Source: Thysanoteuthis rhombus (Eukaryota > Mollusca > Cephalopoda > Oegopsida > Thysanoteuthidae). Taken from it: a DNA stretch of 64,000 nucleotides. The stretch covers positions 44,369,794 to 44,433,793 of the forward strand of contig OY735216.1 in assembly GCA_963457665.1 (NCBI GenBank), given 5' to 3'. Made by a program: the position numbers and the translations under genes. Position 1 is the first letter of the stretch, and every line of letters starts with the position of its first letter. Below the pieces are notes generated by a model. The model saw nothing but the letters and a program-made list of their open reading frames with translations. It was not told where the DNA came from and did no database searches. Positions 3,583 through 62,270 of the stretch are shown here, piece after piece.

Positions 3583-4433
3583 CCCACACCCTGCCTCGAG
3601 ATGATCTTCAGAAGACTAGATTGGGAAAGTACAGGAATCAGAATAGACGGCGAATACCTGAACAACCTCAGATTTGTAGACAACGTTGTCTTATTTGTAG
3701 AGAACCTACACTACCTCCAACTAATACTCGATGAACTTAATGAAGAGAGCAAGAAAGTTGACTTAGACATAAACTTCAGCAAGACGAAGATCATGAATAA
3801 CAACCAACCAGATCGGAAATAAAAACACTAAGATCGAAATCGAGGACACAGAATTGGAGAAAGTAGATCACTATATCTACCTAAGACTACAATTCTCCAT
3901 GAGACCTTCAAAAGAAGAAATCACGCGAAGAATCACATTAGGATGGCAAGCCTTTGGCAGAGTAAGCTCAACTTTAAAAACAAGAACATCCCATAGATCC
4001 TAAAAAGAATAGTGTACGACCAATGCATCCTTCCAATAGTCACTAATGAAGCTGAAACATGGGACCTAACCAAGAGACAGATCTGCAAAATCTTGCAACG
4101 TGCACATGAAAAAGTAATGTGGGGCCTAACATGGAGAGACCACAAGACAGTACATTACACCAGAAAGAAGAAAAGAGTCAGGAACATCATAGAATCCATT
4201 AAAAATCTCAAATGGCAGCGGGCTGGCCATATTGCAAGAATAGCAGACGACCGATGGACATTGCGACTAACGACATGGATCCCCAGAGATCACATGCACA
4301 ACCGAAGCTGGAATAGTATTAAATGGAGAGACGAGCTAAACAAATTCAGAAAGTACTGGCTCCGCGACGCCCACGATAGAGAAGTGCAGCGAATCCTGGG
4401 GAAGGTGTATGTCCAACGACAGACATTGAAAGA

Positions 4434-4487
<54 letters not shown>

Positions 4488-8889: not shown

Positions 8890-10191
8890 GTTATAAACAA
8901 CAACTTATGGCAATGCATAAAGCCTTACACCCCAGAGTTGACAGAGATAGACTATACGTTAAGAGAAAAGAAGGTGGCTGGGGGCTCATCAGCGTAGAGG
9001 AGTGTGTCTAGAGAGCTAAAACAGATCTAGAAAAGTACGTGCAAGCAAACAGTAAAGACATCATAAAAAGTGCACGAAACAGTGCAACAAACCACAAAAT
9101 AGAAAACGGTGGAACAGCACAGCAAACAAGGAAAGAAAAATGGGAAAAGAAAAAATTGTACGGAGATTTTAAAAGACAGAAATAACATATGGCAGACGAG
9201 AGATCATGAACATGGTTACGAAAAGGAAACCTGAAGAGAGAAACGGAGTCGCTCATCATGAAAGCTCAAAACAGAAGTATCAGGACAAACTATATAAAAG
9301 CAAAAATCGGCAGAACACAGATAAACAGCTAGTGCCGCCTGTGTGGTGAAAGAGATGAGACCGTAAATCACATAACTAGTGAATATAATCAACTCGCCGA
9401 GAAGGAGAATAAATACAGACATGATAGAGTATCAACGGTGATACACTGGGAACTGAGTAAACGAATGGGATTCAACCATACGGAAAAGTGGTACCAGCAC
9501 AAATCAGAGGCAGCCCTGCAGAATGAAAACCACAAATTAGTCAGGGACTTTGACATCCAAACTGACCACCTCATCCAGGCAAGAAGACTAGACTTGGTAA
9601 TCGTAGACAAGAAAAGGAAAACCTGCCAAATAATAAAGATGACTGTATCTGCAGACCATAGAGTAAACAGGAAGGAAAGTGAAAAACTGGAAAAATACCG
9701 AGATCTATCGAGAGATCTGAGAAGATGTGGAACATGAAAGTCAGGTTAGTGCCAATCATAGTCAGCGCACTGGGAACTGTCCCAAAGACAACGAGGGCGA
9801 GACTGGGGGAGATCAGGATAAAAGGAAGGATTGAGACTATACAGACCACAGCACTGCTAGAAATTGCACGGATAGTGAGGAAAGTGCTAGAAATATAAAG
9901 ACTGAAATACCAATTGTTAGCAGTGGCCTACCAGACGAAGGGAAATGTAAGTGGAAATGTGAACCACAGCACTGGCATGATTGGCGAAGGAGAAAAAAAG
10001 ATGTTGGCTGAAGACCTGAGGAGACTTACTGTCGCTCAGCCTTCAGCAATGACCACCGGGCATCCGCTGTGAGACTGTAGACCACAGTATTACTGTGGCC
10101 TATGAGAACTGGGAGAAGGGCTGGAGACTTGAGGAGACTTGCTGTCACTCAAACTCCAGCGGTTACCACCAGGCAACTGGTGTGAGATTGC
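8890..10191 (+). mobile_element. LINE with restriction-like endonuclease (R2/NeSL-like), 3' half, decayed
   Basis: Non-LTR retrotransposon C-terminal region. It begins with MHKALHPRVDRDRLYVKRK / GGWGLISVEECV (8905-9011). A CCHC-like knuckle follows, CRLCGERDETVNHITSEYN (9335-9391), with the last Cys replaced by Tyr. An ELSKRMGFNHTEKWY segment leads to the endonuclease: ARRLDLVIVDKKRKTCQIIK, where family members usually have RPD...IID. Pro and the catalytic Asp therefore appear lost (RRLD, IIK). Next is ADHRVNRKESEKLEKYRDL. Stop codons (e.g. at 9009, 9184 and 9328) and a frameshift near 9729 make it a pseudogene. A ~290-bp structured 3' UTR ends in (AAT)n. The RT domain is absent. Confidence 0.85.
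10013..10187 (+). other. LINE 3' UTR: duplicated module with three hairpins
   Basis: Two ~62-nt modules, 10013-10074 and 10126-10187, share GAC-TGAGGAGACTT-CTGTC-CTCA and end TGTGAGA. Each holds a hairpin. The first is CACCGG-GCAT-CCGCTG (10054-10069, one mismatch). The second is CACCAG-GCAA-CTGGTG (10067+100 to 10182, perfect stem with a GCAA loop). Between them is a 7-bp hairpin, CCACAGT-ATT-ACTGTGG (10082-10098). In R2-type elements the 3' UTR structure is what the reverse transcriptase recognises, so that role is plausible here. Confidence 0.7.
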
Positions 10192-22123: not shown

Positions 22124-22345
22124 AGGTTACGGGAAAATTCCGTTGGATGCATCAGTTCTAGTTAGGTTACCGAAGTTAAGAGATTTCGAGCCTGGTCAGT
22201 GCCTGGACGGGCGAATACCAGGTGCCGTAAGCAGAACGAAACTAATTAGAAGTTGGTCTTACTAACTATCGATCGCGTGTACATTATTCCTTGACTCCCT
22301 CCATGAGGGTATAAGCGGTGGACGATGATACATACATACATATCT
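22124..22345 (+). mobile_element. 5S rRNA-derived SINE (SINE3-like)
   Basis: The first ~109 nt align with 5S rRNA. GGTTACGGG corresponds to its 5' start. GCATCAGTTCTAGTTAGGTT, CCGAAGTTAAGAGATTTCGA, GCCTGGTCAGTGCCTGGACG and AATACCAGGTGCCGTAAGC (22214-22232) cover the rest. The pol III internal control region (A-box GAAGTTAAG, C-box around TGGTCAGTGCCTGGA) is recognisable. About 9 nt usually found between GGGTGA and AATACC are deleted. A ~90-nt unrelated body follows, ending in a (CATA)n tail (22330-22343). The unrelated body plus simple tail favours a 5S-headed retroposon over a plain 5S pseudogene. Confidence 0.75.
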
Positions 22346-22648: not shown

Positions 22649-22723
22649 AATTTTAGTTTTAAGATCCACACATAAATAACAGCGTCATTTTTTTACGAGT
22701 ATATGCTAGAATATATATATATA

Positions 22724-22768
<45 letters not shown>

Positions 22769-22789
22769 TAGCATATAGGGTATATGCTA

Positions 22790-22849
<60 letters not shown>

Positions 22850-22883
22850 TAGCATATACCCGTAAAAAAATGACGCTGTTATT

Positions 22884-22948
<65 letters not shown>

Positions 22949-23005
22949 TAGCATATACCCGTAAAAAAATGACGCTGTTATTTATGTGTGGATCTTAAAA
23001 CTAAA

Positions 23006-29750: not shown

Positions 29751-29805
<55 letters not shown>
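29751..29805. repeat. (TA)n microsatellite at hammerhead-repeat boundary
   Basis: TA-rich run ending directly at the TTGTGTCATCCACAG terminus of the hammerhead repeat. Confidence 0.95.
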
Positions 29806-29806
<1 letters not shown>

Positions 29807-30160
29807 TGTCATCCACAGACTGCTGTTTCGATGTATTACATCTCTTCAGTGTGACTATAGACTTTCCATTATCCTATCCAGTACTGCGAGGCAGAATTGA
29901 AACCTTCACTTCAGACCCGCAGGCTGATATCTTATATCTGGACTACAGAACTGGATAGTCAGTAAAATTGAATTTAAGCGATATATCTATATACACAGAA
30001 ATCCCTCATCCACCAGAGTGCTCTATTTCTATGGAAGAGCATAGCATGAGCGTACAATGGATGAGTTACCTCACTTAGAGAGTGCTCAACCCTAAATAGA
30101 GGAGCATCAATTATTGTGTCATCCACAGATAGCTGTTTCGATGTACATATTGTTGATGGT
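29805..30160 (-). mobile_element. Hammerhead-bearing 310-nt tandem repeat (retrozyme-like), 1.1 units
   Basis: Two in-phase occurrences of TTGTGTCATCCACAGA..GCTGTTTCGATGTA, at 29805 and 30115, are exactly 310 nt apart and define the monomer. Ribozyme sense is the minus strand. The first unit is complete and the second stops within stem II of the ribozyme. Landmarks shared with the 42.0- and 62.1-kb copies are CATCTCTTCAGTGTG, CTTTCCATTATCC, GAGGCAGAATTGAAAC, TCAGACC-GCAGGC-GATATC and CATCCACCAGAGTGCTCT. There is no coding potential. Metazoan retrozymes are non-coding tandem repeats of a few hundred nt with type I hammerheads, and the match in architecture is close. Confidence 0.75.
29813..29854 (-). 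ncRNA. Type I hammerhead ribozyme
   Basis: Minus strand 5' to 3': TCACA (stem I), CTGAAGA (29843-29849), stem II GATGT-AAT-ACATC (perfect 5 bp), GAAAC (29825-29829), AGCAGTC, then TGTGG (stem I). All invariant core positions and a GUC cleavage triplet are present. Stem III, a perfect ACAGCTGT palindrome in the 62-kb copy, has one mismatch here, and stem I ends in a G-U pair. Predicted cleavage lies between 29818 and 29817. Confidence 0.75.
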
Positions 30161-42011: not shown

Positions 42012-42261
42012 GTATGTTGAACGAGAGCACTCTGGTGGATGGGGAATTTATCCGTAATATATATATAACGCTTAGATTCTTAATTAAATTAATTTGGCAT
42101 TACAGACCATTCAGTTCCGTACCTCTGAGGCAGGATATCGGCCTCCGGGTCTGAGGCGAAGGTTTTGATCCTGCCTTGTAGTACTGGGTGGGATAATGGA
42201 AAGTCTACTGCCACACTGAAGAGATGTAATACTTCGAAACAGCTGTCCGTGGATAACACTT

Positions 42262-57617: not shown

Positions 57618-58319
57618 GCTATTTGTCCCCGAAGCAGCTAGGCTTGATTATACTAATATTTTCATCTTATATTTACTTTGAAATATTAATGTAATCCATC
57701 ACAGCTTCTATATGAATAATAAGTTGCCCGCCTAACGCAAGTATGTTTTTGGGAGAGACCTTTATGATTCTTAAAAGATCCTAAAGGCATATTTTCTCTT
57801 CTTGTTCGTGCACTATAAAGTGGCTGGCATGTTTCACTTGAATTAAAATTAACCCATTACATTACCCTACAACGGCATTGCTGTGCTTATTTTGAAATTA
57901 CGCAAACAAATCCTAATGTAGGCCACTGTTACCAGCCCCTGCCCGCCCTCCATCTCCCCCTCTCCCCCAACAAAACGACTGCGAGAACAACAAAATTTCA
58001 TTCATTCAATCATTCAATCATGCATCCCCCTCATTCCTTCGTTCATTTTTGTTTTGTTCAGTTCGATCATTGGTTGGCTTGGCTCCTTCGTGTACGGAAC
58101 GCTGTTCTTGTGCGTCGAATTTCAAGCTCAATACGAAAAATGAAGAAATTGAATGAAAAATATTTTTATTGATAAAGGTTTCTGCTAAAAAGGGTTTTTT
58201 TTTTAAATTTTTTTTTATTTCTGCGTTGTTGGAGGGTAAGGGGGAGGAGGCATGGGTAATGGTGCGAGAGTTGAACGTTAAATGATTCATGCTCTATTTA
58301 TGAGAGATACTAATCCATT

Positions 58320-59700
58320 GCTGAATCACGAGAAAAAGGGAGACAGGAAGAGAAAGGGTGACACTGAGAAAGAGAGAGAGAGAGAGATGGGGGGGCAAAA
58401 GGAGGAGAGTGAGGAAGGAGAGGGAAAAGAAAGAGAGGAAAAAGAGGGTAAAGAAAAAACATTTGATGTGAGAAAGAAAGATAGCGAGAGGAAGAGAGGA
58501 AGAGAAAAGAGAGAGGGAAGGAGGCAGAGAGAAAGAACGTAAGAAAGAGAAAAATAAAGAGAAGAAGAGAGGAGAAAAGAGAGTGTGTGTGAGAGAAAAA
58601 AACAGAAGAGGAGAGGGTGCGTGAGAAAGAGACAGAGAGTGCGAGAGAGAGAGAGAGAGACAGAGAAAGAAATACGGAAAAAAGGGTAAAGAGAAAATTT
58701 GGAGAGAAAAAGAAAAAGAGAGTGAAAAAAGGAGAAAGGAAGAGAGAAAAAGTGAGAGGGTGAGAGAGGAAAGTCTGGAGAGGAATGAGGGTAATAGAGA
58801 GAAGGCAGGGAGAAAAAATGGTATAGAGAAAATCTTATGAGAGAATACGAGAAAGGAAGAGAGAGGTTGAGGAAAAGAGTACGTGAGAAAGAGTGGAAGA
58901 GGGGAAGGAGAGGAAGAGTGAGAGAAAAAAGAGAGAAGAAATGAGTGAAAAGAAAATCTGATGGGAGAAGAAGAGAAAGAAATTAAAGAATGATAGAGAT
59001 ATGAGAATAGAAAGGGTAAACAAATCAAAGAAAGAAGAGTAGAGTTATTTGAAAAGAAAGAATGAAGGACAGAAGAAATACAAAAAAAACGAAAGGGAAA
59101 AGGAAGAAGGAAAGAGTAAACAGAAAATTAAAAAAAGGAAAGGAAAAAGAAAGAAAGATACAAAAAAGAATAGAATCAAAAATAGAATTAATGAAAGTTA
59201 ACAAAGAGAAAAAAGATTTTTTCAAATCACAAAGAAATAACAAAAAAGAAGGAAAAAAGAAAAAAGAGAAAAAAAGGAATGAAAAGTGAGATAGAAAGAA
59301 AAAAGGGAAAACACAAAGAAAAAAGGTGATTATGAAATAAAAATAGAGAGAAAGAAAAGTCAAAGATTGGAAAAAAACAAAGAAAAATGAAAGAAAGAGA
59401 GGAAGAAAGGAAAAGAAAGAAAAACAGAAAGAAAGAAAAGGAGAGATTGACATTATGGCAGAAAAGGAAAAAGTCAAAAGGAAAAGGAAGATAGGGGATG
59501 ACTGGAGAGAAGAAAAAAAGAAAAATCAAATGAGAAAGAACGAGAATTACATAGAGGGAAGGATATACAGAGGGATAAGGAGAGAGGGAGAAAGAGAGGG
59601 GCTGAGAGATGGAGAGATAGAATGACGGAGGTAAAAGAAAAGCCGACAAAAATGAAAGGGAAAGAAAACAAGAAAAAGAGAGGGAGAGAGAGAGTTATTA
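58320..59700 (+). repeat. ~1.4-kb polypurine (GA-rich) tract
   Basis: Almost exclusively A and G on the plus strand with GAGAGAGA, GGAAAG and AAAGAAAG wording. All long open frames here (for example 244 codons on the minus strand at 58294-59028, Ser/Leu/Phe-rich) are artefacts of the tract. Confidence 0.95.
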
Positions 59701-59934
59701 GGGATCATATAAACCCCGTCTTTAAGAAGGTAAATGCCGTTTTACCTTGGAACGCTAGTACCAAGCGAAGGGTGGAATAATGAAGCGGGTGGAGAAGAAT
59801 GTTCATGGGGGTGGGGTAGGGAGTTACCGGGTGGAGCTAGGAGGGAGAGAGAGAGAGAGAGAGAGATAAAAAGATAGAGAGAGTGAAAGAGAAAAGAGAA
59901 GCGGGAGTGTCAAGATAAAAAGTACGGAGGGTGG

Positions 59935-60660
59935 ATTCTCTCTTTCCCTCCTCTCTCTGTCTGTCCCTCTCAGTCACTCTCTCTTTGTGCATGCGTGCGC
60001 ACGCGCATGTCTTAGGTCTGCCTGTCTGTCTGTCCGCCCGCCTGCCCGCCTGTCGGTCTGTCTGTCCGTCCGTCTGTCTGTACGTAAGGTGATTCATTCG
60101 GGCGTATTTACCGGTACTTTTGGGGCCCGGCATGTTGTAAACAACTTTCAGAAGAGAAAAGCTCGAATCGAACGAATGACGATAGAAGAAAGAAAATATC
60201 CCTTTTTTTTTCTTTTTTTTTTCTTTTTTCTTTTTTTAGGTTTAATTTTTTTTTTTTTTGAATGAAGACAAAACTCGCTGAGAAGAAGAGAATGTAAAAG
60301 CGACGCACAGAGTTCTGTGTGCGTGTGTGTGTCTCGCTTTTTCTCTACACCGCTCGCCTCCTCTCTCACTTTGGGAAACGTCATTCGCTGTTTTGTTCTG
60401 TGTTTCTCTTTCTTTTCTTTCTTCCTTCTCTCTTTCTTTTTTCTTTCTTTCTTTTTTTCCCCAGCTTTGATTCTATCTGCCTTTCTCTCTTTTCTATCTT
60501 ATTCTTTTTGTATTTCTTTCTTTTTGTCGTTCTTTACATCTTTCTTATTCCTCTCTCTCCCTTTCTTTTCTGTTTAGCTGTGTTTTTCTGTCATCCTTCC
60601 TCCTTTCTTTTTTTCTTTCTTTCTTTCTTTCTTTTTTTCTATCTATTCGTCTGTTTGTAT
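59935..60660 (+). repeat. Polypyrimidine tract (CT-rich, TTTC-rich)
   Basis: CTCTCTTTCCC and CTGTCTGTC blocks (59938-60085), poly-T blocks near 60200-60260, then TTCTTTC-type repeats (60405-60650). Strand composition flips from purine to pyrimidine at about 59935. Confidence 0.9.
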
Positions 60661-61029: not shown

Positions 61030-61300
61030 CATGGTAAATATATCACTCAGCCTAGACAACGTAAATGGAATAAACAATGAAAGAAAATTGAGTCAGTTAC
61101 TCGGACCTTTGCATTACTGGCGGCAGTTCAGCTCAATGGTAACAGCAATGCTACGCAGATACGGTCGCATATTCGAATCTTGGAGCAGCCCCATTTTCTT
61201 CAATTGTTTATTCTATTTACATCGTCAAGGCCAAGTGATATATTAACCGTCTAATAACGGGAACACATTTTAAATAAGACTTTCAATATAATATGACGCA
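61030..61300 (+). mobile_element. tRNA-derived SINE (family 1) with inverted arms
   Basis: Left arm 61048-61092 (CCTAGACAACGTAAATGGAA, TAAACAATGAAAGAAAATTG) is an imperfect reverse complement of the right arm 61190-61232 (CATTTTCTTCAATTGTTTAT, TCTATTTACATCGTCAAGG). The tRNA-like head lies between: CCTTTGCATTACTGG, CAGTTCAGCTCAATGGTAAC (A-box), ATATTCGAATCTTGGAGC (B-box region). The 3' end continues ATATTAACCGTCTAATAACG and AATATAATATGACGC. No (TA)n boundary at this copy. Confidence 0.82.
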
Positions 61301-62040
61301 ATTTATAAACACACACACTCATACACACGCACACATATATGTATAAATTGTTATTTATTCTGAGGGTTGAGATATCTATGCATGAAGGGTGCTTAATATA
61401 AGGAATAGAGCATATGTAAATAGGTGTACATAGAAAATCAAGTTCTTCGTGGTGACTCTGAGTTCCATTCATCATCCATTTACGCTCTTTTCTAATTCAA
61501 TGATAGAGATCACCAGTGATAAAATAACCACCAAATAGTAAAAAGCTTTACATCTTTATTCATGTCAGTTCAGTCACTTATTTACCTGTAAAAGCAATAA
61601 ACGTATTATTTTCAAAGCACCTTATGTTTTACACAGAATTAGATATTAGAGTGCTTAGTGTGTAAATTCCCTTCTTGGGATCATAAGTTGTTTGATATGT
61701 AACTGTTTTTAAGGAATTTAAAAACGAAACGAGCATGTCAACAAGTATGTATGCACGTATTTATAACGAACAATGTGACACTTTTTATTTGTTTCTCTGC
61801 TCGTAACACTTGAAGGTAAGAACTCTGCTGATAGAAATATCTTCCGTACGATATTTGACTTAATGGCTTTTCCCATTGACACGACTTCAGTAACTTTTTA
61901 ATAGGAATTCCAATGAAAGTCGTAAATATTCATTTACACTATTAACAGCTTTGAAGTCGAGAACTACGACATGTTTACGTTGGTAAGAGAATAGGAAGAA
62001 AAAATTCAGACTCCACAGAAATGCATAACGTCCCGTAATA

Positions 62041-62268
62041 TATATATATATATTGTGTCATCCACAGACAGCTGTTTCGATGTATTTCATCTCTTCAGTG
62101 TGGCTATGGACTTTCCATTATCCCATCAAGTACCACGAGGCAGGATTGAAACTTCAGACCCGGAGGCCGATATCTTACCTCTGGACTACGGAACTGGACA
62201 GTTAGTAAGGCTGAATTTAAGCGATATATTCATTTACACACAAATTCCTCATGCACCAGAGTGGTCTA

Positions 62269-62270
<2 letters not shown>
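62041..62270 (-). mobile_element. Hammerhead-bearing 310-nt repeat, best-preserved ribozyme
   Basis: Starts beside (TA)n (62038-62053) and runs through the ribozyme (62062-62103), TTTCCATTATCCCATCAAG, GAGGCAGGATTGAAAC, TTCAGACCCGGAGGCCGATA, CTGGACTACGGAACTGGACA, GAATTTAAGCGATATAT and CACCAGAGTGGTCTATAG, ending at (GT)n. About 225 nt of the 310-nt unit are present. No coding capacity. Sense strand of the ribozyme is minus. Confidence 0.82.
62062..62103 (-). ncRNA. Type I hammerhead ribozyme, all core positions intact
   Basis: Minus strand: CCACA (62099-62103), CTGAAGA (62092-62098), stem II GATG-AAATA-CATC (4 bp), GAAAC (62074-62078), AGCTGTC (62067-62073), TGTGG (62062-62066). Stem I CCACA/TGTGG is a perfect 5 bp. 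Stem III is the perfect palindrome ACAGCTGT with no loop, which in known examples works best as a dimer. The cleavage triplet is GUC, with predicted scission between 62067 and 62066. Confidence 0.85.

Follow-up and report, generated by a model that had tools for sequence, protein, structure and literature searches.

A minimal hammerhead motif and three copies of its repeat

The window, i.e. the whole stretch of 64,000 nucleotides of Thysanoteuthis rhombus DNA that was analysed (contig OY735216.1), carries an intact minimal type I hammerhead on the minus strand at positions 62062..62103, as seen in the sequence itself, in a motif scan, with Rfam and in the predicted fold. Read from 62103 to 62062, it consists of CCACA-CTGAAGA-GATG-AAATA-CATC-GAA-ACAG-CTGT-C-TGTGG. 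The core has the type I signature (CUGANGA and GAA, A15.1-U16.1, and a base other than G at position 17), all three helices are present (stem I 5 bp, stem II 4 bp, stem III 4 bp), stem I is open-ended, and the predicted cut site lies between 62067 and 62066. An ATG within stem II starts 24 nt ahead of this site. Stem III is the palindrome ACAGCTGT without a loop, and the motif therefore differs from canonical hammerheads, which are defined by a loop III and by contacts between loops 1 and 2. The initial annotation had described all conserved type I elements on the minus strand, a 5-bp stem I (CCACA/TGTGG), a self-complementary stem III without loop and the same cut position. The conserved elements were borne out by reading of the sequence and by the motif scan, stem I and the cut position by the sequence of this copy, and stem III by sequence and fold, so that the hammerhead observation was confirmed.

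The full motif was matched once in the window and not at all in 100 first-order simulated windows, and with up to three mismatches three places were found in comparison to none in 100 shuffles. At the curated threshold of Rfam, a search of the whole window yielded no hammerhead match. Under relaxed conditions, the covariance-model check proposed in the annotation did recover the motif with RF00163 (Hammerhead_1; 28.2 bits, E 0.0092 over the window), which is below the cut-off of 34 bits; the E value was 3.9e-5 when a 271-nt stretch containing the motif was searched. The consensus structure line of Rfam at this match likewise shows a stem III without loop. For a single hammerhead sequence another hairpin was predicted (-10.4 kcal/mol), whereas two copies folded together formed a double hammerhead with a common stem III of 8 bp (-26.5 kcal/mol). 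These folds support the earlier assignment to the minimal hammerheads of the retroelement type in a non-coding, dispersed repeat. By its sequence, catalytic activity of this minimal type I hammerhead is plausible.

Three copies of this repeat, with about 240 aligned nt, are located in the window. The copy with the intact hammerhead, c3 (62051..62269, minus strand), is 5'-truncated, begins at position 102 of one unit and ends at position 16 of the following one; it is directly followed on its 3' side by a (TA)n sequence (62038..62050, minus strand). With 344 nt, copy c1 (29802..30145, minus strand) exceeds one unit of 310 nt and forms a seamless partial dimer. Its hammerhead (29813..29854, minus strand) has an intact core and an A-A mismatch in stem III. 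This copy also contains a 34-nt hammerhead end (30112-30145) and a 5' part of the unit which are absent from c2 and c3. The possibility that 30112-30145 is a stray fragment was rejected, since related copies place the 34-nt end and the linker at the beginning of the unit. Copy c2 (42024..42259, plus strand) reaches from unit position 104 to 12, with (TA)n nearby on either side, and its hammerhead (42211..42252, plus strand) has an intact core and two mismatches (A-C in stem I, T-T in stem II). In a cmscan with E values up to 10, no hammerhead row was obtained for c1 and c2, and only the hammerhead of c3 is fully paired. The conservation of the motif in three diverged copies had been put forward as an argument against chance. 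It holds for the catalytic core, which is kept in all three copies, and not for the stems, which are mismatched in c1 and c2; furthermore, the argument is weakened because these are three copies of one repeat and not independent evidence. A compensated stem II class found elsewhere in the genome is the better evidence.

Some further features of the window were noted. A 5S rRNA-like stretch (22125-22233, plus strand) reached 32.5 bits (cut-off 38) and possibly represents a 5S-derived SINE. By eye, a tRNA-like SINE head with CAGCTCAATGGTAA and TTCGAATC was recognised at 61120-61200 (plus strand), and similar pieces occur in the flanks of another locus (L018). A long (TA)n-based inverted repeat with unique arms and identical frames on both strands is present at 22659-22998, and the region 58001-60000 shows a strong strand asymmetry (GC skew 0.60, AT skew 0.49) with a long purine-rich strand. 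Frames at 9333-9737 and 3997-4470 resemble, by eye, decayed remnants of non-LTR retrotransposons.

Relatives in the genome and two stem II classes

In the 2.73-Gb genome, a core pattern of 32 nt, one base of which was left free, was matched 3,103 times (1567+1536 on the two strands), and a pattern with a base other than A at the second position of stem II 4,393 times (2166+2227); the controls, reversed in the case of the core pattern, gave no match. Among the first 100 listed matches of this second stem II class, a T-A pair replaced the A-T pair of the window class in 95 and a standard pair was present in 97. One relative (L001) showed an additional change from T-A to C-G, and seven long-loop variants were matched by a stem II pattern one base longer. 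The states of the stem II classes are mostly inherited and therefore represent one or few events, each of which changed both sides and kept the stem.

In 24 distinct hammerheads, whose core was required for inclusion and whose second-class members had also been preselected for stem III, 93.9% of the cells were paired, compared to 17.3-52.9% when the partners were slid. Two-sided changes occurred in 2 pairs of the real pairing and in 0 to 3 pairs of the slid controls, so that the paired percentage discriminates and this count does not. With the whole c3 element as query there were 4,911 first-look candidates; the 40 best ones, c3 among them, were scored and were 88-100% identical. At 29 loci chosen by whole-element similarity, excluding a copy from the window (L002), the hammerhead diverged less from the consensus than the rest of the element (41/1216 vs 353/6588; Fisher p 0.003). 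The core was kept in 17 of these 29 copies and damaged or gapped in 12, and 11 were fully paired. Single copies decay, and a modest extra conservation of the hammerhead is left. At three loci (L012, L045 and L059), a second copy in opposite orientation lies within the same 3 kb. The exact hammerhead patterns had no match in the viral_contigs and genome_contigs collections.

With Rfam, window-class relatives gave a hammerhead row in 2 of 20 loci at E values up to 0.5 (L006, 26.0 bits; L028, 25.0 bits), second-class relatives in 11 of 12 loci at E values up to 2 (19.3 to 34.1 bits). The curated cut-off can thus miss such a family, since a single place among these 20 + 12 loci exceeded it (L130:1496-1538, 34.1 bits). 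The best place of a whole-genome Rfam search, L001:1501-1544, also exceeded the cut-off (35.6 bits); in this search 73 of 299,496 first-look candidates were scored and one match was kept, and it is therefore uninformative on the copy number.

Repeat unit, end points and copy lengths

An alignment of 64 pieces gave a unit of 310 nt with a G+C content of 0.43, which is numbered here from the predicted cut. Size and G+C content fit the range of metazoan non-LTR retrozymes (about 170-400 nt, low G+C). Judged from its length, the unit is non-coding, and with just 310 nt it contains no frame for a reverse transcriptase with GIY-YIG domain as in Penelope-like elements.

End points were determined for 90 elements from pattern-sampled loci, which had been chosen for an exact core (the duplicates L033, equal to L032, and L049, equal to L048, were left out). 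The 3' end was located at unit positions 16-18, i.e. 16-18 nt past the predicted cut, in 69 elements and at positions 11-23 in 82. The templates must therefore span the cut, and insertion begins at a fixed point past it. At least 12 of 14 flanking nucleotides were A or T on the 3' side of 76 elements and on the 5' side of 46. Most of the sampled copies were single, the longest measured 553 nt, and at least 11 of the 90 were longer than one unit. This number is a lower bound, because the eight elements without the usual 3' end include dimers and interrupted copies. These eight, which do not enter the length count, comprise seamless dimers with ends at unit positions 2-9 (L048, L066, L087), elements reaching the end of the fetched stretch (L088, L118) and elements that break off within the second unit (L102, L107, L108).

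The template lengths of the remaining 82 elements fell into a large group of 232-251 nt and another one of 298-318 nt; 17 templates had 295-320 nt, none 321-346 nt, and eight were longer. Synthesis thus often stops after one lap, a pattern compatible with circles or re-ligated units and also with uncut concatemers on which it stops at TA-like places. Part of this peak could result from microhomology with TA targets, since a one-lap copy ends within TA-like sequence. The elements of the 232-251-nt group have 5' ends near unit positions 80-97, often with (TA)n upstream, and outnumber the one-lap group; this larger peak is not explained by a circle. Exact genome matches to a 30-mer across the seamless junction numbered 367 (172+195; control 0), those to a (TA)n-ended 30-mer 2,383 (1190+1193; control 0), and the ratio between the two resembles 11/90.

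Interpretation and alternative explanations

The ends of the sampled copies suggest that the repeat may spread via unit-sized RNAs that the ribozyme generates. The motif, its family, the unit with its end points, the A+T-rich 3' flanks, the dimers and the compensated stem II, all computed from the DNA, are best explained by a retrozyme-like, non-coding, SINE-sized retroelement whose minimal hammerhead would act as a dimer. We assign this reading a probability of roughly 0.6; cleavage, circularisation and the identity of the reverse transcriptase are inferred parts of it. Against it stands that the insertions end beyond the cut and not at it.

This last point likewise speaks for an explanation in which the hammerhead fold is kept as a structural site for recognition and priming by a Penelope-like reverse transcriptase. 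The fold would be uncut, or cut incidentally, and linear, uncleaved dimeric or monomeric transcripts would be the templates. The position of the 3' ends in 69 of 90 elements, with templates spanning the cut, is in line with this, and so is the Penelope-like element of Anolis. This element cuts AT-rich DNA, initiates reverse transcription at an internal position past the hammerhead and still inserts in vitro with hammerhead mutants (PMC11167929), and its hammerhead is reported to cut solely when the protein is present (PMC11167929). In addition, the distance of 24 nt between the ATG in stem II of c3 and the cut is close to the 26 bp given for the anole element (PMC11167929). However, most members of the second stem II class lack this ATG and retain the pairing, and another cause would be needed for the peak of one-lap lengths and for the lack of templates just above it.

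A search of the genome for the enzyme bears on the same question. Seven GIY-YIG loci were found, and a Penelope-like reverse transcriptase query gave 150 scored places among 895 candidates, so that relatives of this enzyme are present. No hammerhead was detected in ten distinct GIY-YIG or Penelope-like loci (L122-L128, L145, L146, L147). The check covered one strand of L146 and L147, the sequence of L128 is partly N, and among the GIY-YIG loci some are perhaps not Penelope-like; L144 overlaps L126 and was not counted. A Penelope-like locus carrying this hammerhead was missing among the ten loci read, though such a locus may well exist elsewhere in the genome. We consider the priming-site explanation less likely than the retrozyme-like one. 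Penelope-like elements, which have been named as likely helpers of retrozymes (PMC7761336), are perhaps the partner of the repeat also under the retrozyme-like reading.

The body of the unit shows some likeness to tRNA. Its consensus contains no TTTT and matches the A-box in 11 of 11 and the B-box in 8 of 11 positions, a score reached by 10 of 1000 shuffles, and the tRNA-like part begins near unit position 173. In c3, this stretch lies upstream of the hammerhead at approximately 62120..62198 (minus strand; limits taken from the family consensus), with a complete A-box match at 62178-62188 and a weak B-box. Transcription of the unit by Pol III is possible on these sequence grounds. The consensus circle had a minimum free energy of -92.4 (z -3.0), which none of 200 shuffles reached, with a paired fraction of 0.63 in comparison to 0.62 in the shuffles.

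The tRNA-like features would suit an ordinary tRNA-derived SINE mobilised by a LINE, with the hammerhead as a passenger. Size and dispersion are SINE-like, and 5' truncation and a 3' flank of simple repeats occur as well as the full A-box and the lack of TTTT. The combined A- and B-box score could be calculated for 36 copies, from 28 of 30 class-A and 8 of 12 second-class loci. In 15 of them no more than 2 of 40 shuffles equalled it; the other 21, some of them truncated, were unremarkable, and the B-box is weak. Moreover, RF00005 gave no tRNA covariance match inside the element in 20 + 12 loci or in the three window copies. A match at L046:2419-2489 was rejected as proof of tRNA identity, because it lies outside the element. 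The start of the tRNA-like part near position 173 rather than at the 5' end, the seamless dimers and the lower divergence of the hammerhead compared to the rest of the element also disagree with a passenger, which makes this origin improbable.

A chance resemblance to a hammerhead, for which the score of c3 under the Rfam cut-off and the weak scores of most members of its class might be quoted, can be dismissed in view of the empty simulated windows, the thousands of core matches, the relatives L001 and L130 above the cut-off and, strongly, the compensated stem II class.

Comparison with known hammerhead-bearing elements

The schistosome elements Sm-alpha and Sj-alpha carry a canonical hammerhead. 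They share with the repeat described here that they are SINE-like, tRNA-related and hammerhead-bearing, and more than 10,000 copies have been reported for Sm-alpha (PMC2770079, PMC4918200). They differ in the host group and in their reported tRNA similarity (PMC2770079, PMC4918200), which is weak in the squid repeat.

Metazoan non-LTR retrozymes, as described in PMC7229834, are likewise non-coding, comprise 170-400 nt with less than 50% G+C and have a type I hammerhead; their head-to-tail copies have a possible counterpart in the partial dimers of the squid repeat. The retrozyme hammerheads are canonical and occur in tandem repeats, from dimers up to 62-mers in coral (PMC7229834), whereas the repeat in T. 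rhombus has a stem III without loop and consists mostly of single copies with at most 553 nt among the 90 elements. A minimal helix III is shared with the hammerheads of Penelope-like elements and Terminons, which are thought to cleave as dimers (PMC7761336); unlike these elements, the repeat unit has no frame for a reverse transcriptase or endonuclease. Poseidon PAc of Anolis is similar in its AT-rich targets, its internal start of reverse transcription past the cut and its partial tandems (PMC11167929), and resembles c3 in a start codon at stem II. In PAc, this start is placed 111-118 bp inside the frame and about 90 nt beyond the cut (PMC11167929), compared to 16-18 nt in the frameless repeat.

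According to the review PMC7761336, through which the findings of Cervera and de la Pena (2014) and Lunse et al. (2017) on minimal hammerheads are cited, thousands of dispersed, non-coding minimal motifs have been reported in animal genomes. These motifs, the retrozymes with canonical hammerheads and the SINE-like hammerhead elements of schistosomes are hence already known (PMC7761336, PMC7229834, PMC4918200, PMC2770079). Among cephalopods, 235 Hammerhead_1 loci are listed for the giant squid genome (PMC6962438), and the word ribozyme does not appear in the main text of a paper on repeats in Octopus vulgaris (PMC13282606). Going by titles and the beginnings of abstracts, none of the papers listed on hammerheads, retrozymes, Penelope-like elements, SINEs and cephalopods describes such an element. 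In comparison to the dispersed minimal motifs, the description here extends to the unit that carries the motif, to the end points of this unit and to two classes of stem II. What seems to be added is a SINE-sized carrier of a hammerhead without loop III and with two compensated stem II classes. Further apparent additions are arrays that do not exceed partial dimers in the elements read, and end points able to test a circle model.

A possible route of propagation

If the repeat is a retrozyme-like element, head-to-tail transcripts with two hammerheads would pair the palindromic halves of their stems III, and cutting by the double hammerhead would release RNA of unit length. This RNA might be re-ligated to a circle, or uncut concatemers might serve as the template. 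A reverse transcriptase supplied in trans, perhaps a Penelope-like one, would then initiate internally within an AATAAT sequence 16-18 nt past the cut, with a nicked TA-rich target as primer. Synthesis would mostly stop early, which would lead to 5' truncation, or often after one lap. Sometimes it might run past its start and form a new partial dimer, a possible source copy.

The lengths and ends of the copies can tentatively be read as footprints of reverse transcription on re-ligated circles, with a fixed start, an early or one-lap stop, and an overrun yielding seamless dimers that could cut in cis.

What minimal hammerheads do in mobile elements was still a mystery according to the 2020 review (PMC7761336). 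A large family with readable end points allows tests of the circle model, first on sequences and later in simple RNA experiments. If the reading of the copies as circle footprints is true, the element would renew its own ribozyme-competent dimers, which would be the sole loci able to cut in cis.
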